Positions 26,124 to 45,117 of a DNA stretch of 64,000 bases are shown here, piece by piece (position 1 is the first letter of the stretch; every line of letters begins with the position of its first letter). The notes under the pieces are model-generated. The model searched no databases. It saw only the letters and a program-made list of their open reading frames with translations, and was not told the DNA's origin. This DNA comes from Vibrio cyclitrophicus (GTDB lineage: Bacteria; Pseudomonadota; Gammaproteobacteria; Enterobacterales; Vibrionaceae). The DNA lies in contig NZ_AP025481.1 in the NCBI RefSeq assembly GCF_024347435.1, forward strand, positions 992,001 to 1,056,000. The letters run 5' to 3'. Made by a program: the position numbers and the translations under genes.

Positions 26124-27069
26124 TTAAGTCTTCTCTAGCAATGTTAATTATTTTAATCCGCAGTAAGAAGGATATTATAAAAGCTACAAGTTGTATAAAA
26201 ACAAAAAGTACAGTGAAAGCTAATGTCGCTTCATTATCCTCAGTAATTCTATTTATAAAACTTACATCAACTTTTTGAGGTAAAGATCTGTACTTCTGAA
26301 TAAAAACCTTTCCTCCATTAGAGAAAAACACACCATTCAAGCCTTTATCATTATACTCAGCCCTTATATATCCTTTTACAGGGTTATTTTTTTCTTTCTT
26401 AAAGTAAACATAGTCTCCATTATTAAAAACTCTCGGGGAAAAGTAATAATTCGACTCAGTGATTAGCGAGTAGTCTGATATTTCCACATATCCTTCCTTT
26501 AACGTAGGAAAGTAATAATCACTAGCATCAGATATGTTTTTTCCTATTTGAACATCACCAATCAGATTGGCAGAAAAAATAGGGTTGTTTGTATCAAGCT
26601 CAACTACGATGGCAGTACAAATAGGTAAAAATTCTTTGTTAAAGTCAACAGACAAGGCACCTGAACTATATTTCGCATCTTTCCCAAGTATTTCAATAAT
26701 TAGATTTCTATCACTAAATCTAGTTATCGATACTTGTGCACCTTGATTTAAATTGAGGACTCCTTCTAGTGTTCGTGCTTGCTCTTTAATAAATTGGACA
26801 TCACCACACTCACCGACTGAAAAATTTTTCAGTAAAATATCTGATGAGTTTTTATCATTTGGAGTATATTGGAAAAACTCAGAGTTTACCTTTAATGTAT
26901 AAGATGTATTTTCCCCCAACTTACTAAACAGTAAAATTAATAATAATACAGCAAAAGAAAAAACCAGAGCTAGGAAAGTAATAACCCAAACACGTACATT
27001 TTCTGGAACTCTCTTTAGCTCCAAGTAATTTTTAATATACAACCATAAAACTCTCACTCTGGAACCCAA
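26116..27069 (-). CDS. hypothetical membrane protein with large periplasmic domain
   Basis: 317 residues, not recognised. One membrane segment near the N-terminus (about 27-51, VWVITFLALVFSFAVLLLILLF) and one near the C-terminus (about 283-308), leaving about 230 residues between them, probably on the periplasmic side, beta-rich (DVQIGKNISDASDYYF). The layout is that of a two-helix inner-membrane scaffold or transducer. It overlaps the preceding gene by 16 bases and the protease gene by eight, so all three products are made together. A role in placing or controlling the protease is inferred from this coupling only. Confidence 0.7.
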   Translation of the reverse strand: MGSRVRVLWLYIKNYLELKRVPENVRVWVITFLALVFSFAVLLLILLFSKLGENTSYTLKVNSEFFQYTPNDKNSSDILLKNFSVGECGDVQFIKEQARTLEGVLNLNQGAQVSITRFSDRNLIIEILGKDAKYSSGALSVDFNKEFLPICTAIVVELDTNNPIFSANLIGDVQIGKNISDASDYYFPTLKEGYVEISDYSLITESNYYFSPRVFNNGDYVYFKKEKNNPVKGYIRAEYNDKGLNGVFFSNGGKVFIQKYRSLPQKVDVSFINRITEDNEATLAFTVLFVFIQLVAFIISFLLRIKIINIAREDLND

Positions 27070-27734
27070 ATTAGGTATTTTTTGTTTCTAGAGCTTTTAA
27101 AAACAACATTGCTGTTCCCCGACGGGATAATTTCGCCTAACTTACATTTGAAGTTATATGAAATCTTTATTTCAGAATCAACATCAACACAATAACTATT
27201 TGTCCCACCTTCAACAATCGGTTTATACATAGGGATATTACTTGCACTATTTATATAAAAATAGCCAGTTTTAGTTGAACTATTAATTGGCATTCCCCAG
27301 GATATAGGAAATACATGCAAGAATTTCCTACCTCGTTTATCTTGCTGTTCAATATATGCAAAGGCTGTAAGTTGTTCTACAGCGTACTTAGATAGCTTTT
27401 CTCGATACTTTGAGGGGAAGGTTATTTGGTTCCAAAACGGCTCACCATTTTGAAATTTTAAAGACACTGTTGCTGAATAAATTCCATCTATCGTAGAAAT
27501 GTCAACATTGAGTTTATTTACATTTGGTGGCCTAGAGACATACAGTTCATTTATCGCAGGAGCAGAAAGCTCGCCAGTAACTTCATAGCCTATGAGTAGT
27601 CCACCAGCGACATTGACGTTTTCTGAGAACTCTTCATGTACAGATATAACCTCATACCTTTCATCATTCGACAAACTTTGGAATGACGCTATAAACAATG
27701 TAACTATCCATGTAAAACGCTTAGAGTTTTTCAT
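27054..27734 (-). CDS. hypothetical exported protein
   Basis: 226 residues, not recognised. A signal peptide (about 1-22, RFTWIVTLFIASFQSLS) is followed by a beta-rich mature domain with two cysteines (in YCVDVDS and FKCKLGE) that could form a disulfide. It is the first gene of the three-gene operon with the two-TM protein and the serine protease. It could be a substrate, inhibitor or co-factor of the protease; the sequence does not decide. Confidence 0.65.
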   Translation of the reverse strand: MKNSKRFTWIVTLFIASFQSLSNDERYEVISVHEEFSENVNVAGGLLIGYEVTGELSAPAINELYVSRPPNVNKLNVDISTIDGIYSATVSLKFQNGEPFWNQITFPSKYREKLSKYAVEQLTAFAYIEQQDKRGRKFLHVFPISWGMPINSSTKTGYFYINSASNIPMYKPIVEGGTNSYCVDVDSEIKISYNFKCKLGEIIPSGNSNVVFKSSRNKKYLIWVPE

Positions 27735-29286: not shown

Positions 29287-29301
29287 GATTTTCAAACTAT
29301 T

Positions 29302-29410
29302 TGTAGAAACAACCATAAAGTGATATTTACGATTTCTTTTAGTTCAATAGCTTACTTAAAAAGCAACCATATGTTGATATCGCCTAAAACAACCATAAGT
29401 TGATATTTTC
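29302..29410 (+). mobile_element. right end of a Tn7-like transposon (type I-F CAST-like TnsB sites)
   Basis: Three direct copies of a TnsB-type site read inward to the right: CAACCATAAAGTGATATTTA at 29310, CAACCATATGTTGATATC at 29364 and CAACCATAAGTTGATATTTT at 29390. The terminus is TGTAGAAA at 29302-29309. Site spacing is 54 and 26 bases. From memory this sequence, order and spacing match the right end of the Vibrio cholerae type I-F3 CRISPR-associated transposon Tn6677 closely. The five bases outside (CTATT, 29297-29301) would be one half of the target duplication. The element extends to the right; the other end and the tns genes are not in the window. Confidence 0.85.
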
Positions 29411-29580: not shown

Positions 29581-29841
29581 TCAACTAGCTAAAGATTTGA
29601 TTTCTGATTGAATCAGTTCACACAATCGTTGCATGATAGAAATCAAACGCCTTGCCTGTACAAACAAGCCTAGAAAAATATACTCTCGAGCACGGTTAAG
29701 TAAACTATCAAACACCTCAAATTTCTTAATAATCTCTCTGTTTTCGGACTGCAATATCAAATAGCTATCAGTGCCAAACATTACTAACTGTTGTTCTATC
29801 TGTTCACAGCATTTCAATAACAGGGCTGCAGAGTTATCCAT
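29581..29841 (-). CDS. small helical protein, last gene of the dynamin operon
   Basis: 86 residues, not recognised. Predicted all-helical with alternating hydrophobic positions (AALLLKCCEQIEQQLVMF and LFVQARRLISIMQRLCELI). No signal or clear membrane helix. It overlaps the preceding coiled-coil gene by eight bases, so it belongs to the six-gene operon. It could be an accessory subunit that binds the coiled-coil protein or a GTPase. Confidence 0.7.
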   Translation of the reverse strand: MDNSAALLLKCCEQIEQQLVMFGTDSYLILQSENREIIKKFEVFDSLLNRAREYIFLGLFVQARRLISIMQRLCELIQSEIKSLAS

Positions 29842-30823
29842 TCAACATTGCCTCTAGATACTGCAAATCTTTTTGATTTAACTGAGTTAACTCTTCTTTG
29901 AACTCAATCAGTTCCTGTAACGTTTGTGCAGTGGCTGCCTGAGTAACCTTTTGACTTTGGATCATAATTTGGATTTCAGCCATCAGTTCTTCCAAAGTAC
30001 GAGTTTGTCCTTTCTGAGCAGTTTTAACTACCTGTCGAACATCACCTAACAAGCGACTATTGTTGTCAGCCATGTCATTCACTCTATCTTCAAACTCTTC
30101 ATTAAGTTCAGAAAACTGCTCAGAAACCTCTTTTGTAAACTGTCTGCTATGCTCTAAAAGTATCGACTGAAGTTGCTTGTTACCTTGTTCAATTATATTT
30201 CCTTGTTCACGCATGAACTCACCATTTTCTTTGGTTTGCGCTTCAATTTGGCTAGTCAACTCAAAGATTGGCGAAAGTTTTTTGGTGATCTGCTCGAGAT
30301 GGTGATCAAGTGACTGTCGTCCTAGTTTATTTTCCTGTATCAATTGTTTACTAAGCTGCTCTGCAGTTTGTGTGAATTTTTTTGCTAGCTGGTTTTGCAG
30401 TTCAATGGAATCCGCCGATTGTTGGCTATTTAATATATTGATTTTTAATATTAGATCAGAAAGTTTGTCGTCAATTATTTCTGATACAAGCATAGTATGG
30501 TTCTCTAGCTGCTTAACTACACTAATCAGTTGCTGATGAATTCTTTTATCTTGCTCAGTTTTGTCTTTTACAGCCATACAAATTTCTGTTCGCATATTTT
30601 TCGTCGTTGATTGGAATTCACTTTTATAAGCAAAAAATGCTTGTTGTTGCTCTAACTGACGCTGATGCGCTAGTTTCTGATCAAGTAAGCTGAATATGAA
30701 TACCGATACTGCAGCTAATCCAACAAGTCCGTACCCATATACAACGTATTGATTGTGGATAAACATAATGAATAAGAAAGCTAAAATAGAAGCTACCGTA
30801 ATCGCTTTAAAGACTGATGACAT
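29834..30823 (-). CDS. two-TM coiled-coil protein of the dynamin operon
   Basis: 329 residues. Two adjacent membrane helices (about 7-25 and 28-47) with a short hydrophilic turn (IHNQYVVYGYG), then a long Q/E/K-rich cytoplasmic coiled coil (about 50-320) with many heptad-like stretches (QLAKKFTQTAEQLSKQLIQE). The form resembles ZorA- or MCP-like stalks, or a membrane receptor that docks large GTPases. One base after the 417-residue gene and overlapping the last gene by eight bases. Not a recognised family; membrane tethering of the system is inferred. Confidence 0.75.
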   Translation of the reverse strand: MSSVFKAITVASILAFLFIMFIHNQYVVYGYGLVGLAAVSVFIFSLLDQKLAHQRQLEQQQAFFAYKSEFQSTTKNMRTEICMAVKDKTEQDKRIHQQLISVVKQLENHTMLVSEIIDDKLSDLILKINILNSQQSADSIELQNQLAKKFTQTAEQLSKQLIQENKLGRQSLDHHLEQITKKLSPIFELTSQIEAQTKENGEFMREQGNIIEQGNKQLQSILLEHSRQFTKEVSEQFSELNEEFEDRVNDMADNNSRLLGDVRQVVKTAQKGQTRTLEELMAEIQIMIQSQKVTQAATAQTLQELIEFKEELTQLNQKDLQYLEAMLNG

Positions 30824-30824
30824 A

Positions 30825-32078
30825 TTATTTTTTACCTATAGATTTTAAATAGATAATCTGATTAGTTAAGAAATCGAGAGTAATAGATTCACACTGATGC
30901 TGATAGAAATCTATCAGTAAGTCAGTAAACTCCTTTTTATCCCTCTGAATTGTTTCAATAAACTCAAGGTGTGTTAGCTTATTAATATTACCAAATGATA
31001 CATCGCTCCCAATACTGCGTATACTTCCAATACACTTCAACTTTGTACTTTTTACCAGCTTACAGTAAGCATCCAGTGGCAAACTGTAACCTACCTTTTT
31101 AAAGTTATTTAAGAAGGGCATTGTCGAACCATCAAAAAATTCTTCGCTTATGTGAGTGCAGTAATTATCTAACACGTTCATTGCAGCTTGTGATAAGTAC
31201 TCATGATACTTCTTTTGATTTGAGATACTTTGTAAACCGTGCTGTGAAAATATCTTGTCAAGACTGCTGGGTGAGATATAGTCTTCAACAAAGTCTTCAA
31301 TACAAAAGTCATAGGTCGTACGAAAAATCACATCGTCTGATACGAAATCCTCCATTTGTTCAACTTGGTGCTGTATATATTCTCTCTGTCTTTGGAGATA
31401 GCTTTTTCGATGGTTAAATCTGGCTTTGAAATACTGCTTTAAATTTGAACTATCACCGACTTCTACAACGTCACCAGCTAAAATATCTTTAGAGTACGCA
31501 CCAGATAAATCCTGTTCCGACATATCAAGGTCCGAGGAAGCGGTATCTGGTCCTTCTAAAAGCATTAGCTGAACATTCGGAATATGTCGCCGTGCGATCA
31601 GCCAATTTGTTAATCCGTTAATAATACTCTTATTAGTCAGCTCCCCATAAGGAAAGGCATCACACCAGAGTATTCCATATAAATGCTTTAGCCAGCGCAT
31701 ATCATCCCTTAGAAATGGATTAGAATGATGTTCGACTAAGAAGCTTTTTGTCTTAAACTGAGGTGGGATAACAAACACAAAACCCAATGGCAGGTTGCGG
31801 TTACCTACTGAAAGATAGATCACCTCCCCTTTTTCAACAGAGTTGCTACCCTCTCTCAAGTTCAAAAGTCCTTCATTCGTTTCAACGTACGCGATATCTT
31901 CATCATGGTTAAACAAAATGTAGGTTTTTTTACTGCCATTATCTAAGTAGCTAACCGGCATAAAATCCTGCACCGCATCTCTCAGCAATGAGCGAAAGAT
32001 GAGGTAAGTCTCATGAGTTGGTAAGCCCAAGACAAATACACTTTGATAGTTCAGCAGTGTTTGCTTGAGGTTAAGCAT
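30825..32078 (-). CDS. hypothetical protein of the dynamin operon, possible degenerate GTPase
   Basis: 417 residues, not recognised by family. The N-terminal 170 residues follow the order of a small-GTPase core but lack its motifs: VFVLGLPTHETY occupies the place of a P-loop (no GKS/T), FNHDEDIAYVE and VIYLSVGNRNLPLGFVFVI could be the switch and beta-strand elements, and LYGILWCDAFPYGELT resembles the strand and helix after DxPG. The C-terminal 230 residues are helical. It overlaps the third dynamin-like gene by eight bases and is one base from the coiled-coil gene. A pseudo-GTPase partner is a hypothesis based on this pattern. Confidence 0.65.
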   Translation of the reverse strand: MLNLKQTLLNYQSVFVLGLPTHETYLIFRSLLRDAVQDFMPVSYLDNGSKKTYILFNHDEDIAYVETNEGLLNLREGSNSVEKGEVIYLSVGNRNLPLGFVFVIPPQFKTKSFLVEHHSNPFLRDDMRWLKHLYGILWCDAFPYGELTNKSIINGLTNWLIARRHIPNVQLMLLEGPDTASSDLDMSEQDLSGAYSKDILAGDVVEVGDSSNLKQYFKARFNHRKSYLQRQREYIQHQVEQMEDFVSDDVIFRTTYDFCIEDFVEDYISPSSLDKIFSQHGLQSISNQKKYHEYLSQAAMNVLDNYCTHISEEFFDGSTMPFLNNFKKVGYSLPLDAYCKLVKSTKLKCIGSIRSIGSDVSFGNINKLTHLEFIETIQRDKKEFTDLLIDFYQHQCESITLDFLTNQIIYLKSIGKK

Positions 32079-34554
32079 TTAACGAATCCAGCTTTTCAGC
32101 TAATTGAGCAACCTGAAATAGCTTCTGCTCTTTTTCTTGCTGAGAAAGTTGCAAATTACTCTTAAGTTCTGCTATTTGATCTGCTAATTCTCTGACCATG
32201 GATTCGCTGTCCATCATGACGCTTAGTGATAGCTTAACCATAAACTGTTCAATAAGTTCATCTGAAGCGGTTTTAACCGATTCAATATAAGAACTCATTG
32301 AGTTATTCATCTGTCGACAATAGAATTCACAAGACAAATTTCTTTGCTGCTCTTTTTGCTGTTGCTTTTGATTTTCAGCCAAAGCCTGAAGCTCTGCCTC
32401 CAGTTCAGATCTACGCTGTAACAACAGCTCTTTCTTTTTCTGTCCGTAAGCTATTTTCTCGTTGAGCAATCCCATATCGCTCATTTTTTTCAACTGCCTT
32501 TGGACTTTACTTTGTACCTCATGCTCAGCTTTGGCACGCAGCTCTTCAAACTGACGCCTGTGATTCTCGTCAATACGAGAGCTTGGTGGCTCATCGAAAT
32601 TCTCTCCGAGCTTTCGCATCCAGAACTCGGCTTCCAGTAACTGAAGCGAATTCAAAGCAACCTGCCCTAAGTTCTGCTCCTTTTCATCACTTGAATTGGC
32701 TAGCTTAGCCGCACTTTGTTGGGATTTTTCCTTTAGCTTTCTATAGTTACTGACATGCTTTTGAGCAATTGGCTTGTATTTATCAACTGCCGATTTAGCA
32801 GTTTTAATGACCGTTGTCGCTTTCTTTACTGCTTTCGTGGCTTTAATTGCTGTTTGAGTTGCATCAATCGTTTTTTTTGTGGTTTTCGCTGCATCAATAG
32901 CTTTTTTACCATTCGTCACCGCCTTTACTGGCCCAGCAGGGGTTGGAATAAACATCACCGCAAGATCAACTGCCTGCCCCAGCATACTAAACGTTTTTGA
33001 AAACGAAGAGTCGCCTGGATTAGTGATATATTGAGGGGCATATGACAATTGATTAACTGTTTCCTTCGAGACTTCCGCTTCAAGTGAAATAGCGCCAAGC
33101 TCACTGCTAGCCGAGCGCATATCTTCGGTCAACTGAGATACTGAATTGTTAAGCTCAATTTCTTCAGCATCCATACTGTTAAGCTGGCGAGATATTGCGA
33201 GTAAAACCTCATCAGAGTTACTAACCACTTCATCAAGTGTTGGTGTGTTCATCTCAACGGAAAATCCTTCAGCCGATAAGCGCCCGCCTACCAAACCGAG
33301 TGCTGACAGCTGCTCATTCTGCTGGCGATAAATAGATTCCACAGATATCGTCAATCGCTCAGACACTCTGGTATTAATATTTAAAGCCAGTTCTTTAACA
33401 CTCTGATCAGAATATTCTCTAACTTTTGTCGGAGAATCTATCCAAATGGCTGTTGAGAGTGTTTTTCGGTAGTCATCAACTGCCTGAACTTTTAATCGCT
33501 CAAGCTCTCGCCCAATATCCCTTTTAACTAAAGAGAACTCATGCTCTAGGCTTTCTTTTAACAACATCCCATCTTTTTTCTGCAAAGCTAGCTCTGTTTC
33601 CAGTTGCTTGACATCGGACTCAAACTGTTCAGGATCACCTTGATACTCAAACTCTATCAACTGGATTGTCTTATCCAACTGGGTTTGAAAATCAGCCGTT
33701 AGTTTACGCATGTTATTTGAGACAGCTCTTTCTAAGGACAATCGAACATCATCAGCGAAATAGCCTTTCAACCATTGCTGCAAGCTTTTAAAGTTTTCCT
33801 GCCAACGCGGTTGCTCCAATTTGTTAGATATAGCAAAGTAGTGCTGACTAGTATCAACCACTTGCTCGAGAATTTGGCAATCTTCAGCTACAACGCTCTC
33901 AACGGATTCTTCACACTCGTTAATCTCATCCATTCTGGTACGAACAAATAAAACATCCAGACCAAACTTACTAATACGTTCTAGGAAGTTAAGGTCAGAT
34001 ATTGAAGGTTGATTACCACTTACATATAAGAATGCTTGAGCAGCAGGCAGAAACTCGTACGTCATCGCCTCATGAGCACTATGAAGTGTGTTTATTCCCG
34101 GAGTATCTACGAGCACCAGTCCATCCTCTAGCAACGGACTATTAAGTTCGATATCCAGTGAGCTAATATCGTCAATATTTAACTCAGGAAGCTGAATACT
34201 TAATTCACCACGACTGATACTTTGTTGGCTAAGGCACTTAGCCATTGAAATATCCAGCACTAATTCTTGATTGTTATTAAGCTTAATCAGTAACTTATCT
34301 TGCTCACCAAAACGAATAGTTGTTAAGAACGAAGTTGTTTCTGTCGTTAGGGTTGGGAGTATGTCTCTTCCCAACAAATTGTTGATAAAATGTGATTTAC
34401 CAGCAGAAAACTGCCCAACTACTGGCAGATAAAACTGTTTGTTCTCTATGCTGGATTGTAAGTTCTCAAGCTGCATTCGTGTCTGAGGAGCAGCGTCAAT
34501 ATCAATGGCAACCGACTCCAAAGTCTGCATCGATTCAATTAGCGCATGATTCAT
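32071..34554 (-). CDS. dynamin-like GTPase (third of three)
   Basis: 827 residues from ATG 34554, which has GGGAG six bases upstream; a TTG five codons earlier is also in frame. G1 GQFSAGKS (47-54), G2 threonines in TTETTSF (71-76), G3 DTPG (150-153); G4 is altered (RTRMDE at 205-210 instead of NKxD). Long coiled coils follow on both sides of a hydrophobic, then A/K/T-rich segment (about 515-600, AVDLAVMFIPTPAGPVKAV), a good candidate for a membrane-inserting paddle. Such proteins bind and remodel membranes. Its start is one base past the stop of the second dynamin-like gene. The altered G4 suggests relaxed nucleotide specificity or a structural role. Confidence 0.88.
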   Translation of the reverse strand: MNHALIESMQTLESVAIDIDAAPQTRMQLENLQSSIENKQFYLPVVGQFSAGKSHFINNLLGRDILPTLTTETTSFLTTIRFGEQDKLLIKLNNNQELVLDISMAKCLSQQSISRGELSIQLPELNIDDISSLDIELNSPLLEDGLVLVDTPGINTLHSAHEAMTYEFLPAAQAFLYVSGNQPSISDLNFLERISKFGLDVLFVRTRMDEINECEESVESVVAEDCQILEQVVDTSQHYFAISNKLEQPRWQENFKSLQQWLKGYFADDVRLSLERAVSNNMRKLTADFQTQLDKTIQLIEFEYQGDPEQFESDVKQLETELALQKKDGMLLKESLEHEFSLVKRDIGRELERLKVQAVDDYRKTLSTAIWIDSPTKVREYSDQSVKELALNINTRVSERLTISVESIYRQQNEQLSALGLVGGRLSAEGFSVEMNTPTLDEVVSNSDEVLLAISRQLNSMDAEEIELNNSVSQLTEDMRSASSELGAISLEAEVSKETVNQLSYAPQYITNPGDSSFSKTFSMLGQAVDLAVMFIPTPAGPVKAVTNGKKAIDAAKTTKKTIDATQTAIKATKAVKKATTVIKTAKSAVDKYKPIAQKHVSNYRKLKEKSQQSAAKLANSSDEKEQNLGQVALNSLQLLEAEFWMRKLGENFDEPPSSRIDENHRRQFEELRAKAEHEVQSKVQRQLKKMSDMGLLNEKIAYGQKKKELLLQRRSELEAELQALAENQKQQQKEQQRNLSCEFYCRQMNNSMSSYIESVKTASDELIEQFMVKLSLSVMMDSESMVRELADQIAELKSNLQLSQQEKEQKLFQVAQLAEKLDSLNA

Positions 34555-34555
34555 A

Positions 34556-36907
34556 CTAGGCTCCCACAAACACTTCTGAAATGTTTCTTTGTTCTATGAC
34601 ATCTACAGCCTGCTCTTCCAGATCACACTGAACACCAATTGCAGCAATTAGAATCTCTGAAATCTGCTCATTCTTCTGTTCGCATTTTTCTATGAGTTGC
34701 TCTTTTTCACTGATACTACCTTCAAGATCCATTTTCTTAAGCTCTAGTTCTTGCTTCTTTCTTAATAATTTGTCGGAAAGGCTGCTCTCCAAACTATGTG
34801 ATAGCAATGGAATCAATGACTTTTCCTGAGAGCGTAAACGGCTAGAAATTTCACTTAACGCCTCACTGCGTATGGAGTCAATTCTCTCTTCTATATCTTC
34901 CTGTATTTTCTTTAATTGTGTTTTAAAGTGACGCTTCTGTGTAGCATTAAACTCCTCAGTTAAGGAACGTTTTTGATCTTCCAATCTCTTAAGCTTGTTA
35001 TTTGTTTCCTTAGAGGCTAAATGTGATGCCTCTATGTCCTGATATTCAATACCACTCAACTCAGCAGTTACCTCTGCAATATCTGAATCATATCGCTTCT
35101 CAACAGATTGTTTATGTTGTTGAAAGTTTTTTATTCGAGCATCATCTTTAGTAATCTTAGTTTTTCTAACAATTTTTTTGCCGAACAGCCAGCTCCACCC
35201 TTTGCCTATAACACCGTCACGAGACTCTCGGTCTATGTCTTCACTTTCGACTCTATCAACAGTTGGCGCTGGCCCCATTCCAGCTAGCTCTGAATGCTTC
35301 TGATCCATCAGCGTACGTTTACGCTCTTCCAGTGACTCTTTTTTATGCGTAAGCCTGATTGCAGACTTTTCTTCTAACTCTGACGAGTTTAAACGTTGTT
35401 CTAATTTTTCAATTTCGTCTTCTAAGTCAGTCCGTCGTTTATCTACTTCTGCATAGTCTAATGACAAGGTGTATTGACCTATTTCATCACTTTTGCCAAG
35501 TTCGACAGGCTGTGCCAATTTGGATAGTTCCTCATTTATTCCCTCCAGCTCAATATCCGCAATAGATTGGATATTCCCTTCAAGCTCTGCTTGAAATGAT
35601 AAAGCAAACAACGCCAGGCTGCTGTTCACATCGTCTTCTAGGCGAGAGATAAAGCGTTTCAAACTTGTTTCTGCATCATCATCCATTAACAACCTGTCAT
35701 GATCTATGATGAAGTCACTATCAAATTTATCCATGTAGCGTTCACGAATTGATTCTAATGTACCTGTCATCGTATTTTCTGCCGCAATACGCGACTGACG
35801 AACTTGACGTTTAATTGTTCTTTTGTTGTTTTCAACCGTTTCACCAATTTTTTCTAGCTGTTGTTCTAACGCACTTATTTGGGCTAATACCTCGCCTTTA
35901 CTGTGACTTTCTTGTAGTTCACTGATCAATTGGCTGTTTGCCTTGCGCGTGTTTTCAAGTAGTTTGATCACACGATTAACTGGCTCTAAAAGTTCAGAAC
36001 GTGCTTTTTCTCCTTGGGTGAGAAAACGCCATAAGCGCTCTTCAAATTCCAATAGGCGTGACTTTTCAAAAAGAGCCTGCTTTTGCTCTGCGTTATAGTC
36101 TCGCTCAACTATCTTTTTATCGCTGCGGGCGACAAGGGCATCCTGCGCTGAAATAGGCCAGATCTCAGGTACCGATTGGGCATGTGGAAATTTACTCTGA
36201 TAACTTTCAGTCAATATCTTAAGCACTGATTCAATTGACTCCTCATTTAAGTTAATAGTGTCAATTTTATTTAGCACCAACAGAATTGTACCCACTTCTC
36301 CTTTCAAGCGATCTAAAAACTCGAAATCGCTGTTCTTACCAGGTTGTTCTGCGTTAAATAAAAAGATACACGCATGAGATTTTTTAATCTGCTCTTCGGT
36401 TATTTTACGGTGACCTTCCCTTACCCCATTTAACCCTGGACTATCGACTAAAATCACGTCGTTTTGCAAGAAATCCGAATCTAAAAACAAATCAACTTGT
36501 TGAATGGAACTCGCTACCTCTTCACCTTTGGTCGTTGCAAATTTTTCTACATTATCAAATGAAGCCTCTGCGAAACTCTGGGTAGTACCATCGTTATAAA
36601 TAACACGTAGCCCTTCATCGGGTTCAGCTTTACCACTATGTTTTAGGAAGTTCACTGTTGCCGTTGTTTCGCCACTAAACGAAGGTAAATACTTATCCCC
36701 CATCATTGAATTAAGAAAGGTTGATTTTCCTGCACTAAACTCACCAACAACAACGATAGAAAATTCGCCGTTTTCTACCTGGCGATATAACTCTTCGAAC
36801 GCATGTTCATTTTCAACATCATCGGTGTTCTGATAGAACTGACATGTTCTTTCAAGCAGCGTCAATACCCCTGCTTTTTTCTCATCATATTGTTTTTTAT
36901 AATCCAT
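34556..36907 (-). CDS. dynamin-like GTPase (second of three)
   Basis: 783 residues. Complete GTPase motifs: G1 GEFSAGKS (55-62), G2 in SGETTATV (78-85), G3 DSPG (155-158), G4 NKID (213-216). Two long coiled-coil blocks follow (about 320-380 and 480-540, again 640-760) separated by a W-containing segment (GWSWLFGKK, about 580-588) that could touch membrane. This is the bacterial dynamin-like/LeoA-type layout. It starts 12 bases after the first dynamin-like gene and ends one base before the third. The best candidate for the main GTP-hydrolysing subunit, since all four motifs are canonical. Confidence 0.9.
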   Translation of the reverse strand: MDYKKQYDEKKAGVLTLLERTCQFYQNTDDVENEHAFEELYRQVENGEFSIVVVGEFSAGKSTFLNSMMGDKYLPSFSGETTATVNFLKHSGKAEPDEGLRVIYNDGTTQSFAEASFDNVEKFATTKGEEVASSIQQVDLFLDSDFLQNDVILVDSPGLNGVREGHRKITEEQIKKSHACIFLFNAEQPGKNSDFEFLDRLKGEVGTILLVLNKIDTINLNEESIESVLKILTESYQSKFPHAQSVPEIWPISAQDALVARSDKKIVERDYNAEQKQALFEKSRLLEFEERLWRFLTQGEKARSELLEPVNRVIKLLENTRKANSQLISELQESHSKGEVLAQISALEQQLEKIGETVENNKRTIKRQVRQSRIAAENTMTGTLESIRERYMDKFDSDFIIDHDRLLMDDDAETSLKRFISRLEDDVNSSLALFALSFQAELEGNIQSIADIELEGINEELSKLAQPVELGKSDEIGQYTLSLDYAEVDKRRTDLEDEIEKLEQRLNSSELEEKSAIRLTHKKESLEERKRTLMDQKHSELAGMGPAPTVDRVESEDIDRESRDGVIGKGWSWLFGKKIVRKTKITKDDARIKNFQQHKQSVEKRYDSDIAEVTAELSGIEYQDIEASHLASKETNNKLKRLEDQKRSLTEEFNATQKRHFKTQLKKIQEDIEERIDSIRSEALSEISSRLRSQEKSLIPLLSHSLESSLSDKLLRKKQELELKKMDLEGSISEKEQLIEKCEQKNEQISEILIAAIGVQCDLEEQAVDVIEQRNISEVFVGA

Positions 36908-36919
36908 TATTAAAACACC

Positions 36920-39205
36920 TTAATTTTTACAATACTCTTCTTTTATTGCGCTTATTTCTGTTGCTGCATTTTTTAGAAGCGGTAGTTCAAGATTCTTAGA
37001 TTGCCCATCAAGCAATTCCAGCTTTTGTCTATAAAGTGCAAATTTTTGCTTATGGTACTGATAGAGCTTATCTGACACCGACGAAAGCTCATTTTTAATC
37101 GTGGATTTTATAATCTTATTTAGTGAACCAATAGCCTCAACCTTCAAGTTTGTTTCTACCTTCTGACAAAGCTCATTTCTTTTCTCTCTAGTGACCTGCT
37201 GACGGTGGTTTCTTAGCTTTGATTCGATATGTTGATTCATCTCTAAAATACGCTTTTCGTGTCTTTCGATCTTTTTCTCTAAGCGCTCTTGACCCAATTT
37301 TGATATATCCATCGAGGAATTAGCTTCATTCAACTGACTTTGAAGGCGATTTTTCTTCATGTTGAGCGTACTAATTTGAGCTGTGTACAGATTGCGAATC
37401 TCATCCAGATCACGATCATACCGCTGTTGCTCACTTCTATCCGCTGCTCGATAGGTTTCTCTTTTTTCAGAAAAGAAGTCCAGAACTCCACCTAAAAGGC
37501 CACCGCGCTCAACTGTTCTGCTTCTGGTGATATACTCAACGCCTGGCCGTTTACCTAGACGCTGAATCTTTGTATCTCTTTTGTTTTTAGTGCTGCGCGT
37601 ATTGGTATTGTTATTGACTAATTCTGTTTGAATTTTTTCCTGTAACTTAGCAAGTGTTTGTTGATTATCCGTGTTTGCTTTTAGACCGAATTCTAAATTG
37701 GTTAGATTTCCCTTTTCGTTATTCAGCTTTGCACGATCTTGACTGACAATGTTGATATCAAGCTCAAAGGTTAATCCACTTACCTTATGTGATTTTTGAT
37801 AGTCAATGGCTACCTCAGAGGTAAAACGATCTGTTTCTAGAATTCCGATCTCATAAACATCTTCGATATTACTTTGTAGTAACCTCTGTATAACGGTGCG
37901 CATCTTCATAATGCCTTGGTCAATTTTTTTCCCATAGGTATTATGAATTACACTTGCTTGCAATTGATCCAAATCTTCACTTTGAATATAGTTTCGCAAT
38001 TCTTCATTTAGTCTGATTAACTCATCTTTTAGATAATGAAGCGTATGATTTTCTAAATCTGTAGAGCGCGAATTCAGGTAGGCCTTTATCTTGTTCCAGC
38101 TTTTATTCTTCCGGTCTTCCAAATTCTCAAGATACTGGGATATCCGTCCATCACTTCCCATCCTATGTTGCTGTTCAATACAGGCTATCTCTTGGCGTAA
38201 ATTATCCTCTATATCATTGATAGCGGAGGTCAGTCCCTTGAGTGCAACATCCTTAATATCATACTCACTGTGATGTTCGACGTAATCCTGTAACCTTTGC
38301 TCAAATACATCAAACCGTGAACCACTCCGTAAGCTGTTACGTTCAGCGTCTGTTAGCTCAGTTAGATCTGAGCTATACAGTTTTTTGAAGGAAGTATCCT
38401 TATGTACTAATGCCTTTAGTGCTGAGATAGCAAAAGTTTCGCATTCTTGTCCTTCAAAGAAATGGCTCGAAAAGTGCGTTGATATTTGGTCATGAAAATC
38501 TGCAAGGACCTTATCAACACTTTCCCCCTCTAGCTCGTTTACCGAATCTATATGATTCAATAGATAGAAAATTCGACTTTGATGCTTTGAAAGCAATTTT
38601 AAGAACTCTAGGTCGGTTTCGGTCAACGCTCTCAAATGGAACAAAAAGATGCTTGCGTGAGCTCCCTCAACTTCAGCAAGAGTGATAGAGCGATGTCCAT
38701 CAGCAGTCCCATTTAATCCTGGGGTATCAACGAGCACTACTGGCGTTTCGATATTCAAAAAATGAGTATATACATGAACACTTTGAATCTCGTCGACAAC
38801 ACTGAATTGACTCGAAAAGCTGGTTACATACTCTTTCAGGGCTTTTTGATCATCCGAAATATCAAGTGTTAATGGATCCCGAGCATCAACAAACTCAATC
38901 GTCACCTTCCCACACTTCGGATTACTTTTCGGTACGTTATGGATATATGTAATGGTTGCTGTGGTTTCCGAACGCGCATGCGGAAGCAAGTCATATCCTA
39001 TTAATGCGTTAATAAATGTTGATTTACCAGTACTAAACTCACCAACGACAGCTATTCTGAACTCTTCAGCCTCTAATAGTTGTTTTATTCCATCTAGTTG
39101 AGCCTGAAAAGGTGATACACCGTAAGTTTTCTTACATAATGTTTCTAGTGAACATAAGGCTGTTCGTATTCTATTTATTTCACTTTGATTGGGCTTTTTA
39201 CTCAC
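36920..39205 (-). CDS. dynamin-like GTPase (first of three)
   Basis: 761 residues. G1 GEFSTGKS (55-62), G2 in RSETTATIT (78-86), G3 DTPG (160-163), G4 NHID (217-220, a mild variant of NKxD). Helical stalk with coiled coils from about 310 to the end, with a short glycine/phenylalanine patch (GGLLGGVLDFFSE, about 570-582) that may be a membrane contact, at the same place as the GWSWLF patch of its neighbour. First gene of the operon; its promoter must lie in the 150 bases between it and the HEPN gene. Its closest relative in the window is the second dynamin-like protein, which suggests an old duplication. Confidence 0.9.
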   Translation of the reverse strand: MSKKPNQSEINRIRTALCSLETLCKKTYGVSPFQAQLDGIKQLLEAEEFRIAVVGEFSTGKSTFINALIGYDLLPHARSETTATITYIHNVPKSNPKCGKVTIEFVDARDPLTLDISDDQKALKEYVTSFSSQFSVVDEIQSVHVYTHFLNIETPVVLVDTPGLNGTADGHRSITLAEVEGAHASIFLFHLRALTETDLEFLKLLSKHQSRIFYLLNHIDSVNELEGESVDKVLADFHDQISTHFSSHFFEGQECETFAISALKALVHKDTSFKKLYSSDLTELTDAERNSLRSGSRFDVFEQRLQDYVEHHSEYDIKDVALKGLTSAINDIEDNLRQEIACIEQQHRMGSDGRISQYLENLEDRKNKSWNKIKAYLNSRSTDLENHTLHYLKDELIRLNEELRNYIQSEDLDQLQASVIHNTYGKKIDQGIMKMRTVIQRLLQSNIEDVYEIGILETDRFTSEVAIDYQKSHKVSGLTFELDINIVSQDRAKLNNEKGNLTNLEFGLKANTDNQQTLAKLQEKIQTELVNNNTNTRSTKNKRDTKIQRLGKRPGVEYITRSRTVERGGLLGGVLDFFSEKRETYRAADRSEQQRYDRDLDEIRNLYTAQISTLNMKKNRLQSQLNEANSSMDISKLGQERLEKKIERHEKRILEMNQHIESKLRNHRQQVTREKRNELCQKVETNLKVEAIGSLNKIIKSTIKNELSSVSDKLYQYHKQKFALYRQKLELLDGQSKNLELPLLKNAATEISAIKEEYCKN

Positions 39206-39357: not shown

Positions 39358-39894
39358 CTACAGCTCTGATAGTTTGCTATCCGTAACCGAAACTAACTCT
39401 CTAAAGAACCTGATGCACTTGTCCAGCTCTTCGCGCTTGACTATATGAGCTTCGGTTCTATTGGTTTGAGCGCGATGAACAGCCTCACCTCGTTTTTTTA
39501 ACCATTTATTGAGTTGTGATCTAGCTTCATCAGCGGTTTGAAAATTGTTCCAAACCCACGCTTCGGTGACATCAATACCGAAGAACTCAGCAAAAAGTGC
39601 TTTGGTCTTTTTTGAACCAGGGTTGTTAAAGTACTTAAGATGCTCATCAAGTCGGTTCTCAACAATTCTTCCAAGCTGTGAACCTATAACAACACCATAT
39701 TTCGCATCAACAAGCTCTTTTGCTATGTCTTCGACATAGGTTTCCCATGCAGTGAGAGTCATTATCAATGTAGCTCTCTTAAGCACCTCTGGAGGTTGGG
39801 AGTTGGAGTTGCATCCGTTTAACTGGTCGTAACACTCTAACAATTGCTCTGCGTCTGAGATCGCATATTCAAAATTGGCTTTCGCTTCTGACAT
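39358..39894 (-). CDS. HEPN-domain protein (RiboL-PSP-HEPN-like)
   Basis: 178 residues, all-helical. The N-terminal half has LMTLTAWETYVEDIAKE, typical of RiboL-PSP/MAE-type HEPN proteins. The motif KKRGEAVHRAQTN (near residues 139-151) supplies the R-x4-H catalytic motif of HEPN ribonucleases. Such proteins often act as RNA-cutting toxins or in defence islands. It is on the same strand, about 150 bases upstream of the first dynamin-like gene, and no antitoxin gene is adjacent. It may be a stand-alone defence gene or an upstream part of the dynamin system. Confidence 0.75.
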   Translation of the reverse strand: MSEAKANFEYAISDAEQLLECYDQLNGCNSNSQPPEVLKRATLIMTLTAWETYVEDIAKELVDAKYGVVIGSQLGRIVENRLDEHLKYFNNPGSKKTKALFAEFFGIDVTEAWVWNNFQTADEARSQLNKWLKKRGEAVHRAQTNRTEAHIVKREELDKCIRFFRELVSVTDSKLSEL

Positions 39895-40320: not shown

Positions 40321-41739
40321 CTAAATCAGGCTTTGTTTGAAGTTAACTAGCTCCTGAATACTGCTAGTATGTGGATTATATATCCACTCCAAATCAAACT
40401 GCGTCTTAGACCGTTGGTACATAAAGCAATCACCGATGACTAGTGAATTAAATTTATTCCCTTGTTCTCTCTGCTCTTCAATACTCTTCATAACGTTTTT
40501 TGGTAGTTCACTCATGATGAAATCAGAGATAACCAAAACATCAGCGTTTTCATAAAACTCACTTTTCATTAACTCAGTAGCATGACGGAGTGCTGGAGCA
40601 ACATCTGTTCCGCCATGAAAAGAGGAACTCAAAAACTTAATCAAAGATTCCAGCCCTTTTTTACCCGTCAAATCAAAAGTCACAATAGATGTTGAGAAGT
40701 TAATTAGATAGCAATTTCGGTCCTGCTTTCTAGCTACAGAAGACAAGTACAAGGCCATAGCTTTGGCTATGTGTTCAGGTGCACCGTACATTGAACCACT
40801 CGTATCTATGCATAAAATCATAGGTCCTAAATTCGAATCCTCTTCAACAGATTCATCTACGAGGACACTCTCCTCCTGATCTATTTCTGTAATGCCCTGC
40901 ATTTCAAAACTCAATAGGCGTGATTCCAGATATTTAAGGTCAAAAAGAACTGATGTTTCAGGATCCGAAAGAAGTGCCAATTCAGAGGGTAGCGCGTGCT
41001 CAATATCCTTCCCTTGAACCACACCTACAATCTCTTCCTTTGAATTGATATCAACAACTGGTTGTTTGAATGCTACCGACTTCAATACTTTTTCAATTTT
41101 AGTTGATGATTCAATTTGCCTTACTTTCCCTAAAAGCTCAGATACCTTTTTGGCACCTTCGTTGTTTTTGAGGTAATCCGCCCATCTCTTTAGCGCTTCT
41201 ATACTTCCACTTTTTAATTCAACATCAGATAAATCAAGGTACATTCCTGGCTCAAGACCTAAACTCTCTAAGCTATACATCAACTCTTCCAGTAAATTAA
41301 GCCATTCACTAATCTGTTTATAAAATTCTTCACGCTTTCTGGACAGAGTTTCGAAGTACCACTCAGATGCAGATTTATCCAGCTTCTTCTGCCAATCTAA
41401 CAACAGGAGACTTCTAGCTGTATCATTAGGCTTTTTCTCTAACAACTCTTTGTGCCAAAAGGAAGAATCAACGTGATATTTAGCCTTCTTACAAAATGAG
41501 ATGTAGTTTTTTAGTAATCCATCAATATCTTGATTATTCGTCCATATTTTTAGATTCGCTTGATCATCGAAAAAAGGGTTATCCACTTCTAATGACCGTT
41601 CAACACCTTCTTTCCAAGCACTGACTTTGGCTTCTACCTTAGATGACAACTCATCTAAATTACCCAGCAATAAACTTTTTTCACTTGTGAGTTCTTTCAG
41701 CAGGTTATCTGATTGCCTATGGATCAGCTCTACTGGCAT
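40321..41739 (-). CDS. ViaA-like VWA-domain protein
   Basis: 472 residues, close to the 483 of E. coli ViaA. The N-terminal 300 residues are helical. The VWA domain (about 305-472) keeps the metal-site residues: DTSGS (D312, S314, S316), the threonine in HGGTD, and the aspartate in VISDF. Wording such as LESLIKFLSSSFHGGTD closely follows ViaA. It overlaps the upstream MoxR/RavA-like ATPase gene by ten bases. RavA-ViaA acts as a chaperone-like pair on membrane respiratory complexes in E. coli; here, inside a defence island, a phage-related job is possible but inferred. Confidence 0.85.
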   Translation of the reverse strand: MPVELIHRQSDNLLKELTSEKSLLLGNLDELSSKVEAKVSAWKEGVERSLEVDNPFFDDQANLKIWTNNQDIDGLLKNYISFCKKAKYHVDSSFWHKELLEKKPNDTARSLLLLDWQKKLDKSASEWYFETLSRKREEFYKQISEWLNLLEELMYSLESLGLEPGMYLDLSDVELKSGSIEALKRWADYLKNNEGAKKVSELLGKVRQIESSTKIEKVLKSVAFKQPVVDINSKEEIVGVVQGKDIEHALPSELALLSDPETSVLFDLKYLESRLLSFEMQGITEIDQEESVLVDESVEEDSNLGPMILCIDTSGSMYGAPEHIAKAMALYLSSVARKQDRNCYLINFSTSIVTFDLTGKKGLESLIKFLSSSFHGGTDVAPALRHATELMKSEFYENADVLVISDFIMSELPKNVMKSIEEQREQGNKFNSLVIGDCFMYQRSKTQFDLEWIYNPHTSSIQELVNFKQSLI

Positions 41740-43349
41740 AGAGCCTCCAGACGTTCACAGTCTTTAATTCGTATTTTGAGTTTATCTATCTGAGAAAGAA
41801 CACCTTTCAAAGCAACCTCTGCATCTGCACTTGTAGCAAAGGGACTATGCAGCTCAACTTTATATACACTCAACTTGTCTTCTGTCTCTTTAAGGCTTTT
41901 TTTTAGCTGTCCTCTCAGGTTACCAACTGAACCTGAAAGAGATTTAATCAACCTCTCGTTTACATCACTTCTTTTATCTCCTTTGTGGAACAAAATAGAA
42001 GGGGTGAATTCAAAGTCGTTATATCTATTTCCATAACGTCTTTCGCTATACGATAGTGTACAAGATCCTTGCTCATCGAACTCACATGTAACCTCTTTTA
42101 CGTCATTTCCCGATGTATCGACAGGGTGAAAAGAAGTCTTACTTTTAAACTTATTAAAAGGAATATAAACCGTTTTCTGCTTAATTTCCGGATTGCCATA
42201 AGAATATGAATTATGCTCTCTGAATTTTGCTACTACTTTAAAGTAATCCGCCTCCCCTAATGAAATTACGTCATATACATCTTCCTTATAGAAGAGCTCT
42301 TTAGTAATCTCTTTCTCTAAGCTATCTTTACTATTATCAAGATCAGCCAAATTGATATCACTAGCAATTCCACATGACTCGATAGCATTCATAACGATCT
42401 CTTCGGTACAAATCCTGTTTGCTGGAGAAGTCCATAAGCAGTGCTTTAGAAGTATTGTGTCTGTAAGGTTTGTATAATTACGCTCGTTGAAAAACGCAGA
42501 TGCTTTCAACAAATTTGCAGCTTTTTGCCACCGTCGATCCGAAACATACAGACCTAACTCTTCATTTTTTTCACTGATCTCATTGCGTATATATTTGATA
42601 ACAAGCAAAGTGTCATTACTAAGTTCAACATTATGTATCGCTTCATTCCACTGATTAAGCTCTGAAAGAGATACTTTAAGTTCCTTATCAACATTAGGCT
42701 CACTAGTCGAAGGCTTTGCGTTTAGTAACAAATTGAAATTATCTTCAAGTACAATTGGCGGGACCATTAAACGAGTAATAAATCGGTCATACAGAGCATC
42801 TAGCCCTTGGTTTTCTTGAGGTACTTCATTCGAGGCGCCAATAACCGAACGAATAGGTGCTTTGATAATTTCACTGCCATTTTTGAAAACATGTTCATTA
42901 ATTAAGGTGAGCAGAGTGTTTAATATCGCTGGGCTGGATTTCCAAATTTCATCAAGAAATGCAAACTCTGCATCAGGAAGATACCCTTCTGTCTTACGGA
43001 TATACTTATCCTGTTTGAGCTCTTGAATTGACACTGGCCCAAACACTTCTTCAGGTGTTGTAAAACGATTCATCAAATGTTCATAATACTTTTGAGACTC
43101 AAATGCACAGGCTAACCTTCTAGAAATTAAGCTTTTAGCAGTTCCAGGAGGTCCGAATAGAAAAGTGTTCTGCCCACTAAGCGTGCTCAATAATGATATA
43201 GAAAGGATCTGCTCTCTCTCATGTAACCCTTCACCAATCTGCTCCAGTAGTTGCGTTATACGTTTTTTCACTTCTGGCTGAGCTGTTTCTGTCACTCTTA
43301 AATTTTTACTGTCTTTGATTGTTTGACGTTCTTTACTTTTCACATTCAT
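41730..43349 (-). CDS. MoxR/RavA-like AAA+ ATPase
   Basis: 539 residues. MoxR-type AAA+ core at about 30-330: Walker A GPPGTAKS (66-73), Walker B FLDEIWKSSPAILNTLL (131-147), sensor 1 VIGASNEVP, and the sensor-2 region in SDRRWQKAANLLKASA as in RavA. The C-terminal 200 residues (beta-rich, then a coiled coil) occupy the place of the LARA and triple-helix parts of RavA. It overlaps the ViaA-like gene by ten bases. Would form a hexamer driving the VWA partner. It starts 41 bases upstream... downstream of the membrane-protein gene of the MBL pair on the same strand, so co-transcription with that pair is possible. Confidence 0.87.
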   Translation of the reverse strand: MNVKSKERQTIKDSKNLRVTETAQPEVKKRITQLLEQIGEGLHEREQILSISLLSTLSGQNTFLFGPPGTAKSLISRRLACAFESQKYYEHLMNRFTTPEEVFGPVSIQELKQDKYIRKTEGYLPDAEFAFLDEIWKSSPAILNTLLTLINEHVFKNGSEIIKAPIRSVIGASNEVPQENQGLDALYDRFITRLMVPPIVLEDNFNLLLNAKPSTSEPNVDKELKVSLSELNQWNEAIHNVELSNDTLLVIKYIRNEISEKNEELGLYVSDRRWQKAANLLKASAFFNERNYTNLTDTILLKHCLWTSPANRICTEEIVMNAIESCGIASDINLADLDNSKDSLEKEITKELFYKEDVYDVISLGEADYFKVVAKFREHNSYSYGNPEIKQKTVYIPFNKFKSKTSFHPVDTSGNDVKEVTCEFDEQGSCTLSYSERRYGNRYNDFEFTPSILFHKGDKRSDVNERLIKSLSGSVGNLRGQLKKSLKETEDKLSVYKVELHSPFATSADAEVALKGVLSQIDKLKIRIKDCERLEALCQ

Positions 43350-43390
43350 AACTAACCAACTGTTTCCTTGTTAAACTTCAAATCTGACCA

Positions 43391-44026
43391 CTATATTAAG
43401 CCACTTAAGCTTATTGCTACGGCTGTTGTGACGAGTCTGTTCCCCGCATTTCTTGCTGCGATTGAAAAGCCTGCAATCGCTACCACAAACACCCACAAAG
43501 ATTGATAACTTACTTCTAAAAGATACTCGCCCAAGAATTGCTTCGCGACCAGCAAGGCAAAGGCACTGACAAAAGATACAGCCGCCGCATCCCTATACAA
43601 CAAATAAGCTCTGTGAGTTGAAGCCACTTCGTCCTGCTTATTGGATGGACGATAAAACTCTTTGTACCAATGACTGTTCTGCTCACTATTATTTTGCTTC
43701 AACAAATCATACTCGGACACGCGGGCCTTTAGGAGCACAGTGTCAATACGTCGATCTTTCTCTGATAACTGTATAAAGCGATGCCCAGGTAACACATTGC
43801 TCCATCGCCAAAATACCAAGACGCTCTTGACTTCAGCCGGCATAAGGTGGCTAAGCCACCCCGAAATCGCACCTATCGCTAACATCGCTCCACCGGTGTC
43901 TTTTAGTATATTGACATAACTGATATCAAAAGAACTTTGATTAACAAGTGATATCACGGTGAACTGAAGAACCATCAACACCGAGAGCGGGACAATGTTA
44001 TTGGCTTTCATCGATAGGCCCACCAT
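43391..44026 (-). CDS. hypothetical multi-pass membrane protein coupled to an MBL-fold gene
   Basis: 211 residues, not recognised by family. Predicted membrane segments near 11-29, 44-62, 148-166 and 175-193, with a last hydrophobic stretch at the C-terminus (VTTAVAISLSGLI). A soluble charged loop of about 80 residues lies between helices 2 and 3. The start shares one base with the stop of the MBL gene (TAATG), so the two are strictly coupled and probably form one effector unit. Confidence 0.72.
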   Translation of the reverse strand: MVGLSMKANNIVPLSVLMVLQFTVISLVNQSSFDISYVNILKDTGGAMLAIGAISGWLSHLMPAEVKSVLVFWRWSNVLPGHRFIQLSEKDRRIDTVLLKARVSEYDLLKQNNSEQNSHWYKEFYRPSNKQDEVASTHRAYLLYRDAAAVSFVSAFALLVAKQFLGEYLLEVSYQSLWVFVVAIAGFSIAARNAGNRLVTTAVAISLSGLI

Positions 44027-45117
44027 TATGCCACCTCTTCTTCATAGTCGAAGTGATATGGCTCAGGATTCATACTATTCCATCCATCACGACCAGGAGC
44101 ATTATAATGGTGACAAATATCGGAGCCTCTCGTCGCTAGTGCTTTGACACCTCGGTGAGTAAAAGCATTCATAACCGCTTTTCGTGGGTGCTTAGGCTCA
44201 CCATTTTTAGCAGTAGAGGCAATCGCCGTAATATTACGAGACGAACCTTGCCCGATAGGCTCTCCAACCAAACGATTTAAAACTGTCGGCCCGATGTTAC
44301 GCTTACTGCCATGATGTGGGATCTGCATAAATCGAAGCTCTGCTCCGCTCGTACACTGCTCGATTTGATCTGCCGCGTAATCCAAAGCCTGAATGCCCGC
44401 ATCCCCAGTAAAAACAGAGCGCCTTCCCTCGACGACCAATTGGGTGATTACACTTAAGTTGTTCTTCGCCGATGTGACTCCGTCATCATCAATCTGGTCT
44501 TCACCCCAAATGGCAAAGAAACGACTAATAGATGCGGCCACTTTGTCAAAAAAGCTTTCTAATGCATTCGTTGCAATGGCTTTTTCCGGCATGCCATCGA
44601 AATCAGGAATGAGGGATTCGTAGTATTCGACAGAAGGACCGAGAACCTTAATACCACCGCCTGTGTCAGTTAAACCAGTAAAAGGTTCACGTACACTTAT
44701 CCCTTTCGATTCAGCCAACTTAACCAGTGACCACGCTTTTTCGAGGTTTTGCTTAAGGCGCTCCCCTAAGCTATTGTCCGTTACGCGTCCATCTTTGAAT
44801 TTATCAGCAAGCCCTTGGTTATGTAGCCACGGCTGATGAATCCAAAGTTCTTTTACTTCGAGTTCATTAAGGACGGTTTCCAAACCGTTGATATGGTCTT
44901 GATCAGCGTGAGTATTAATGACCAAGTCCACTTTGGAAGTACCGAAACAAGTGGTGATGTGATCAATAACCTTTGAACCTGTACTTTGAAAACCACCATC
45001 AATCACAACTACCGTTTGCTCGTCACGATGACCGTGTAGATTACCGTAGCGAAGTGCGATTGCATCACCACTCTTAGACTCTTCACCAACACCTAAAAAA
45101 TCAATTTCGTAACCCAT
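44026..45117 (-). CDS. metallo-beta-lactamase-fold hydrolase (ComEC-type)
   Basis: 363 residues. The metal-binding motif THADQDH (H70, D72, D74, H75 region) identifies an MBL-fold enzyme; further ligands are likely in VFTGDAGIQAL (Asp) and IPHHGSKRN (His), as in the ComEC/Rec2 MBL group that cleaves nucleic acids or phosphodiesters. No membrane segments itself. It is followed with a TAATG junction by a multi-pass membrane protein, a split version of the ComEC combination. In a defence island this suggests a membrane-linked nuclease or phosphodiesterase; the substrate is unknown. Confidence 0.85.
   Translation of the reverse strand: MGYEIDFLGVGEESKSGDAIALRYGNLHGHRDEQTVVVIDGGFQSTGSKVIDHITTCFGTSKVDLVINTHADQDHINGLETVLNELEVKELWIHQPWLHNQGLADKFKDGRVTDNSLGERLKQNLEKAWSLVKLAESKGISVREPFTGLTDTGGGIKVLGPSVEYYESLIPDFDGMPEKAIATNALESFFDKVAASISRFFAIWGEDQIDDDGVTSAKNNLSVITQLVVEGRRSVFTGDAGIQALDYAADQIEQCTSGAELRFMQIPHHGSKRNIGPTVLNRLVGEPIGQGSSRNITAIASTAKNGEPKHPRKAVMNAFTHRGVKALATRGSDICHHYNAPGRDGWNSMNPEPYHFDYEEEVA

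Follow-up and report, generated by a model that had tools for sequence, protein, structure and literature searches.

A conserved six-gene operon encoding three dynamin-like GTPases and a probable pseudo-dynamin in a CRISPR-associated transposon of Vibrio cyclitrophicus

A 64,000-nucleotide stretch of the Vibrio cyclitrophicus genome (assembly GCF_024347435.1, contig NZ_AP025481.1, positions 992,001 to 1,056,000), referred to here in its entirety as the window, includes an operon of six minus-strand open reading frames (ORFs) at 29581-39205 that are designated G1, G2, G3, P4, P5 and P6 in operon order. Three dynamin-like GTPases are followed by a probable pseudo-dynamin, a coiled-coil protein with a membrane anchor and a small protein. 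The same genes recur in the same order in distant genomes, and on this sequence evidence the set is a conserved, self-contained module. Its products very probably assemble into a heteromeric dynamin machine. Overall, it is reasonably likely that the operon is a mobile, self-contained, six-subunit membrane-remodeling module of accessory character that probably serves as anti-phage cargo.

The six proteins are 761, 783, 827, 417, 329 and 86 amino acids long, respectively, and the junctions between successive genes from G1 to P6 measure +12, +1, -8, +1 and -8 bases. The leading gene, G1 (36920-39205), has a GTG start codon, and its product matches Dynamin_N (1.6e-22) and has the G4 motif NHID. 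G2 (34556-36907; Dynamin_N 3.2e-27) has NKID at this site, whereas in G3 (32071-34554; Dynamin_N 1e-20) the sequence is TRMD preceded by a conserved Arg. The start of G3 was placed at the ATG at 34554 instead of the TTG at 34569 because the resulting length equals that of a database protein (P0009, 827 amino acids). P4 (30825-32078) is devoid of both the P-loop and the DxPG motif. P5 (29834-30823) possesses hydrophobic stretches at residues 1-26 and 28-49, downstream of which a long coiled coil is apparent by inspection. P6 (29581-29841) is helical by inspection and its counterparts range from 74 to 125 amino acids across loci. P4 and P6 matched no Pfam family, and P5 produced sub-threshold Pfam matches only. 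An initial annotation of this DNA had proposed six minus-strand genes with junctions of -8 to +12 bases, three large GTPases and a coiled-coil protein with two transmembrane segments; the ORF coordinates agree with this outline, the P-loops GEFSTGKS, GEFSAGKS and GQFSAGKS and the motifs DTPG, DSPG and DTPG were found as described, and the two hydrophobic stretches of P5 match the predicted membrane segments.

Sixteen loci with a G3-type gene were assembled: the window, seven loci from a scan of genome contigs (L002-L008, as loci read in this analysis are numbered), three genomes from the order of a Selenomonadaceae metagenome-assembled genome (MAG), a Lysinibacillus plasmid and four Paenibacillaceae genomes. 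The complete order G1-G2-G3-P4-P5-P6 is present in 15 of the 16, and the remaining locus, L008, is a contig of 7,052 bases that contains G2, a short G3 and a portion of P4. The complete loci span Pseudomonadota, Bacillota and Bacteroidota, and their neighboring genes change from one locus to another. A fortuitous or single-gene cluster is ruled out by this shared order; nor did a single GTPase gene with variable neighbors emerge, the pattern named at the outset as one that would speak against a multi-dynamin system. Compared with the 14 other complete loci, the window proteins are 23-29% (G1), 28-35% (G2), 21-24% (G3), 13-21% (P4), 11-18% (P5) and 13-21% (P6) identical. Since these values are so low, P5 and P6 of distant loci were assigned by position, length and pattern, with BLAST backing in several loci but not all (L089 had none); for P6 this support included 8.8e-9 between the plasmid locus L128 and L002, and 57.8 bits for L088. 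P6 occupies the identical position in all 15 loci, and the N-terminal hydrophobic stretches of P5 number two in 11 loci and one in four.

The Lysinibacillus plasmid (110 kb), the neighbors of which were judged from its annotation, carries all six genes, which are annotated publicly as three dynamin family proteins and then three hypothetical proteins. On the plasmid, an IS4 transposase gene lies at one end of the operon and a gene on the opposite strand at the other. Both the boundaries and the annotation are as expected for a module that consists of these six genes and no others. The plasmid is typed as non-mobilizable in PLSDB. The genes around the window operon (HEPN, vWA, MoxR, 211-residue, metallo-β-lactamase (MBL) and downstream genes) were considered as further components and rejected, as none had a BLAST relative at 1e-4 among the available reading frames of the 14 other loci, some of which have short flanks.

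In three trees of the GTPase domain G1, G2 and G3 each formed a single clade holding every locus used, with support of 100/98, 100/100 and 99/95, respectively, in a tree of 70 rows and of 100/99, 99/99 and 100/98 in a tree of 54 rows. In a quick tree of 58 rows each clade contained 15 rows with a Shimodaira-Hasegawa-like approximate likelihood ratio test (SH-aLRT) value of 99. G1 and G2 are sisters (98/91 and 100/99; 88 in the quick tree). Campylobacterota dynamin-like proteins (DLPs), DynA-type proteins and the LeoA-like trios that were included fell outside the three clades. Phyla are intermixed within the clades; in G1, for instance, Paenibacillus groups with Psychromonas (100/96) in the trees of 70 and 54 rows. 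Such mixing suggests that the six-gene set has been transferred horizontally.

The P-loop and the switch II motif D[ST]PG are retained in 45 of 45 GTPases which, with the Dynamin_N matches of the window's three, places G1-G3 in the dynamin superfamily; G3 additionally displays the GTPase-neck-trunk fold characteristic of this superfamily. The G4 motif separates the paralogs. In G1 it is NxID in 15 of 15 rows and x is never Lys. When L008 is included for G2 and G3, the motif in G2 is NKID in 11 of 16 rows, NKIE in two, NQID in two and NRID in one, and that in G3 is R-[T/N/S]-x-x-D in all 16. The Asp is maintained throughout except for the two G2 rows with Glu. The G4 motifs had been described initially as a gradation from NKID through NHID to RTRMDE. 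The third motif is best read as T-R-M-D in the [N/T]KxD slot and, since each paralog has its own pattern across loci, the gradation is a property of the paralogs. The corresponding G4 motif of eukaryotic dynamin is TKLD. Beyond the GTPase domain, a short and loosely maintained tip motif centered on Arg-Gly and Gly-Lys is common to G1 and G2; the tip segment of G3, at residues ~528-546, is hydrophobic and centers on AVMFIPTPAGP. From their sequences, these elements are candidate membrane contacts.

P4 lacks both the P-loop and D[ST]PG in all 15 complete loci, although the L007 copy contains a masked stretch. When the fold predicted for the window protein was compared with the PDB in Foldseek, 49 of the 50 best rows were dynamin superfamily members. 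In VIA, where the stalk of P4 was matched, the top 20 rows and 30 of 50 overall belonged to the superfamily; these results are subject to the caveat that attaches to helical bundles. The dynamin-type helical stalk covers residues ~217-417, whereas the α/β N-terminal domain is poorly predicted and the head has low predicted local distance difference test (pLDDT) values. Alignment of the P4 head with G3 in hhalign placed the P-loop in register with a score above 40 of 40 shuffles, yet with a probability of only ~1%; hhalign scores against G1 and G2 did not exceed those of shuffles. Sequence comparison of P4 with the PDB disclosed no solved structure at E values up to 1. The suggestion that the 417-residue protein is GTPase-like but motif-less was apt as regards the absent motifs and the predicted dynamin-like stalk, the head being poorly predicted, and P4 probably is a pseudo-dynamin.

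The presence of tandem bacterial dynamins is reminiscent of Eleos, which is represented in the PADLOC defense library by LeoA and LeoBC and functions in defense. The operon might be an enlarged variant of Eleos with the same defense mechanism and extra subunits. G1 and G2 match LeoBC and LeoA weakly in PADLOC (56-72 bits), and an authentic LeoA/LeoBC pair (L109:1619-5231) lies ~1.7 kb upstream of G1 in the six-gene locus L088. However, this pair scores 388 and 269 bits, G3 has no match, P4 and P6 also have none, and matches to P5 are at chance level; one of the latter, to ZorA (E 0.0042), is on the coiled coil and was treated as compositional. The one LeoA/LeoBC pair tested is positioned outside all three clades in the quick tree, on branches so long (3.6 and 4.0) that its exact place is unsure. 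Moreover, LeoC and LeoB are described as one split DLP, and Leo therefore has two DLPs (PMC4159319). The window operon instead specifies three GTPases, a pseudo-dynamin, a membrane coiled-coil protein and a small protein. Membership of Eleos was rejected on the bit scores and the clades, and an enlarged variant is improbable.

Other dynamin systems also resemble the operon in part. Bacterial dynamins are known mostly as single proteins or pairs and, in the operonic Cj-DLP1/Cj-DLP2 pair of Campylobacter jejuni (5owv), GTP turnover requires heterotypic G-dimerization (PMC6104087). This pair is a structural neighbor of G3 and P4, but has two subunits, and Campylobacterota rows occupy a separate clade. 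After infection, DynA of Bacillus subtilis gathers in clusters at the membrane, and lysis is delayed although phage replication continues (PMC8844932); DynA is a single protein of two fused dynamins, and the DynA-type rows P0026 and P0027 are outside the G1-G3 clades. Three dynamin-like proteins beside a LeoA-type protein are reported for a Helicobacter pylori island (PMC8935386). The Helicobacter rows used in the trees were outside G1-G3. Five further three-dynamin clusters (L090, L091, L094, L096 and L097), mostly of LeoA-like proteins of ~600 amino acids, also lie outside the clades, and a similar partner gene of 152-159 codons was noted by eye in L090, L091, L092 and L095. We know of no comparable six-gene set for mitofusin/Fzo1, IniA or Nostoc BDLP1.

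The six-gene set is unnamed in Pfam, PADLOC 2023, NCBIfam 2026 and PDB sequences, and no description was found in open-licence PubMed Central full text, where some queries were narrow and which excludes subscription papers and most of bioRxiv. Word searches within PMC8649781 and PMC13092281 gave zero for dynamin and GTPase. The result for PMC8649781 may be unreliable, as the word 'uncharacterized' likewise gave zero.

The operon is the end cargo of a 49,138-bp I-F3 CRISPR-associated transposon (CAST), in agreement with the original proposal that it is transposon cargo. The left end (29302-29406, plus strand) comprises a terminus and three repeats at 29309, 29363 and 29389, and the end of P6 is ~280 bp inside it. 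The left copy of the target-site duplication, CTATT, occupies 29297-29301, and an identical 5-bp sequence adjoins the right end beside guaC. The right end is at L126:14439, which is 14,439 bases beyond window position 64000, and the two termini match with three repeats each (those of the right end by eye). Beyond the window are a Csy2-like cas8/5 gene (9.8e-11), cas7 (Csy3, 1.2e-93), cas6 (Csy4, 1.4e-40), a short repeat array, a tnsA-like gene (1.1e-8) and guaC (2.3e-196). Putative tniQ, tnsB and tnsC genes are labeled largely from their position, with no specific model match. Type I-F Cas8/7/6 genes, Tns genes, paired ends, the 5-bp duplication and the guaC target together identify an I-F3 CAST. 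No Cas1, Cas2 or Cas3 was recognized by eye among L126 ORFs of at least 180 codons, no model search having been made. An IS3-type insertion, recognized by eye, disrupts the tnsA-like gene, so that the CAST may now be immobile.

This location raises the prospect that the module serves its carrier, perhaps by keeping out other elements that arrive through the membrane, and does not act on phages. Its site at the very end of the CAST, and its occurrence on the 110-kb plasmid between the transposase gene and the opposite-strand gene, are compatible with such a role. Nevertheless, most relatives have no carrier visible by eye in the stretches read, with recombinase-like genes nearby in L089 and L135, and a function on behalf of the element is very unlikely.

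Searches on a larger scale revealed a patchy distribution. Among 5.8 billion proteins, P4 had eight matches and G3 had 22 (17 of them G3-like), near-copies of the window proteins included; the named sources were Vibrio, Endozoicomonas and Moritella. A scan of genome contigs with P4 gave 54 pattern matches, none confirmed, whereas the scan with G3 yielded 42 loci, seven of which (L002-L008, those read gene by gene) have a G3-type gene; 32 of the other 35 were labeled Campylobacterota. Genome censuses also were conducted, the draws of which overlap, include the window's own or the center genome, and score few first-look candidates per genome. Among 227 Vibrio genomes, full-length G3 was present only in that of the window, and the four other Vibrio genomes among the five with any dynamin match have partial matches to other dynamins. 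The corresponding frequencies were 1/150 for the family, 2/394 for the order (the second being the Psychromonas of L006) and 1/200 for the phylum; among 369 genomes of the class only the window's own qualified and two others were partial at 1e-25. Elsewhere, full-length G3 was found in 6/189 genomes of the order of the Selenomonadaceae MAG (28/189 with any match at 1e-25), 5/225 Paenibacillaceae and 1/228 genomes in the order of the Bacteroidales MAG. One of 72,556 plasmids carries G3, and viral contigs and phage records contained no confirmed relative.

The operon could alternatively act in membrane repair or stress tolerance unrelated to phage, such as exposure to antimicrobial peptides, bacteriocins or osmotic shock, or in vesicle formation or secretion as was proposed for LeoABC. 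DynA has been implicated in membrane surveillance against antibiotics (PMC8844932), and deletions of leoA and leoB cut vesicle cargo to approximately half (PMC4159319). The patchiness in Vibrio (1/227), in the Selenomonadaceae-containing order, in Paenibacillaceae and in the order of the Bacteroidales MAG is unfavorable to this alternative, as is the sharing of the CAST by the window copy with dedicated defense systems, and a function in repair, stress or vesicles appears unlikely. The CAST cargo includes Druantia III (DruE and DruH), type I restriction-modification (R-M), an AAA protein, an MBL-fold protein and bpMoxR/vWA genes, and Tn7-like cargo is enriched in defense against mobile genetic elements (PMC8649781). 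Defense is plausible in view of the defense neighbors in the CAST, the patchiness, the enrichment of Tn7-like cargo and the Eleos pair near L088.

The surroundings of the relatives weigh against a defense role and accord instead with a repair or stress module. In eight relative genomes the flanks exhibited no excess of defense models relative to controls drawn from those genomes: PADLOC models matched at E values up to 1e-20 numbered 24 among 99 proteins in the near flanks and 20 among 96 in controls, counts that refer to models, not to proteins. From 174 flank ORFs and 179 control ORFs, 98 and 96, respectively, entered the comparison, selected for proximity to the locus or to the region start; one ORF from L004 was added to the flank set. 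The control regions were chosen by the author and happened to contain type III R-M genes; L007, the plasmid and the four later Paenibacillaceae loci were left out. Of the initial proposal, a multi-dynamin module with a membrane coiled-coil protein, distinct from the tested LeoA/LeoBC pair, and its carriage as transposon cargo are supported; hetero-oligomer formation, docking on the coiled coil and action against phage keep the status of proposals. Taking both sides together, the balance tilts slightly toward a role of the operon in defense.

The preferred interpretation of an anti-phage membrane-remodeling module can be elaborated by analogy. The three GTPases would pair through heterotypic G-domains, as in the Campylobacter DLP pair, and P4 would be a fixed structural or regulatory subunit, either dead or acting as a brake, that fills out the stalk lattice. 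P5 may anchor the assembly on the inner membrane and extend into the cytosol, and P6 may be an adaptor. When phage infection or lysis injures the membrane, the complex might cluster and tether or seal the membrane and so delay lysis, comparable to B. subtilis DynA. Tethering or sealing that delays lysis would be the likeliest outcome, with lethal membrane breakage also possible. In its most specific form, the proposal is a defense machine in which four different dynamin-fold subunits, including one obligate pseudo-GTPase, form a fixed hetero-assembly that docks onto a transmembrane coiled-coil rod. Active and dead dynamins would divide labor in this machine, which would have spread across phyla via RNA-guided transposons and plasmids; this combination is tentative, its chances being slightly short of even. 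If true, bacteria build multi-subunit dynamin complexes with specialized, even catalytically dead, members. The operon extends the known cargo of CRISPR-associated transposons and, as it is compact and cloneable and has natural variants, lends itself to the study of membrane sensing and remodeling by dynamins under phage attack.

Additional genes were noted near the operon and its relatives. Upstream of G1, L135 and L136 both have an additional pair of co-directional genes (514 and 433-435 codons), after which a serine recombinase-like gene comes in L135 (by eye). Just outside the CAST in the window, three co-directional genes (23448-27734; 891, 317 and 226 codons) had no Pfam match above the cut-off. 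Upstream of the operon, 40321-45117 contains in a row bpMoxR (5e-53), a ViaA-like vWA gene, a gene for a 211-residue protein of no assigned family and an MBL-fold gene (PDC-M48B, 1.4e-94). The bpMoxR and ViaA-like vWA pair recalls MoxR-vWA ternary conflict systems, and the region possibly is such a system within the same CAST; linkage of MoxR/vWA to dynamin genes elsewhere was not evident at 1e-4 in the BLAST comparison described above. Finally, a gene for a HEPN_RiboL-PSP protein (39358-39894; 5.7e-25) lies on the same strand as the operon, 152 bases upstream of G1.

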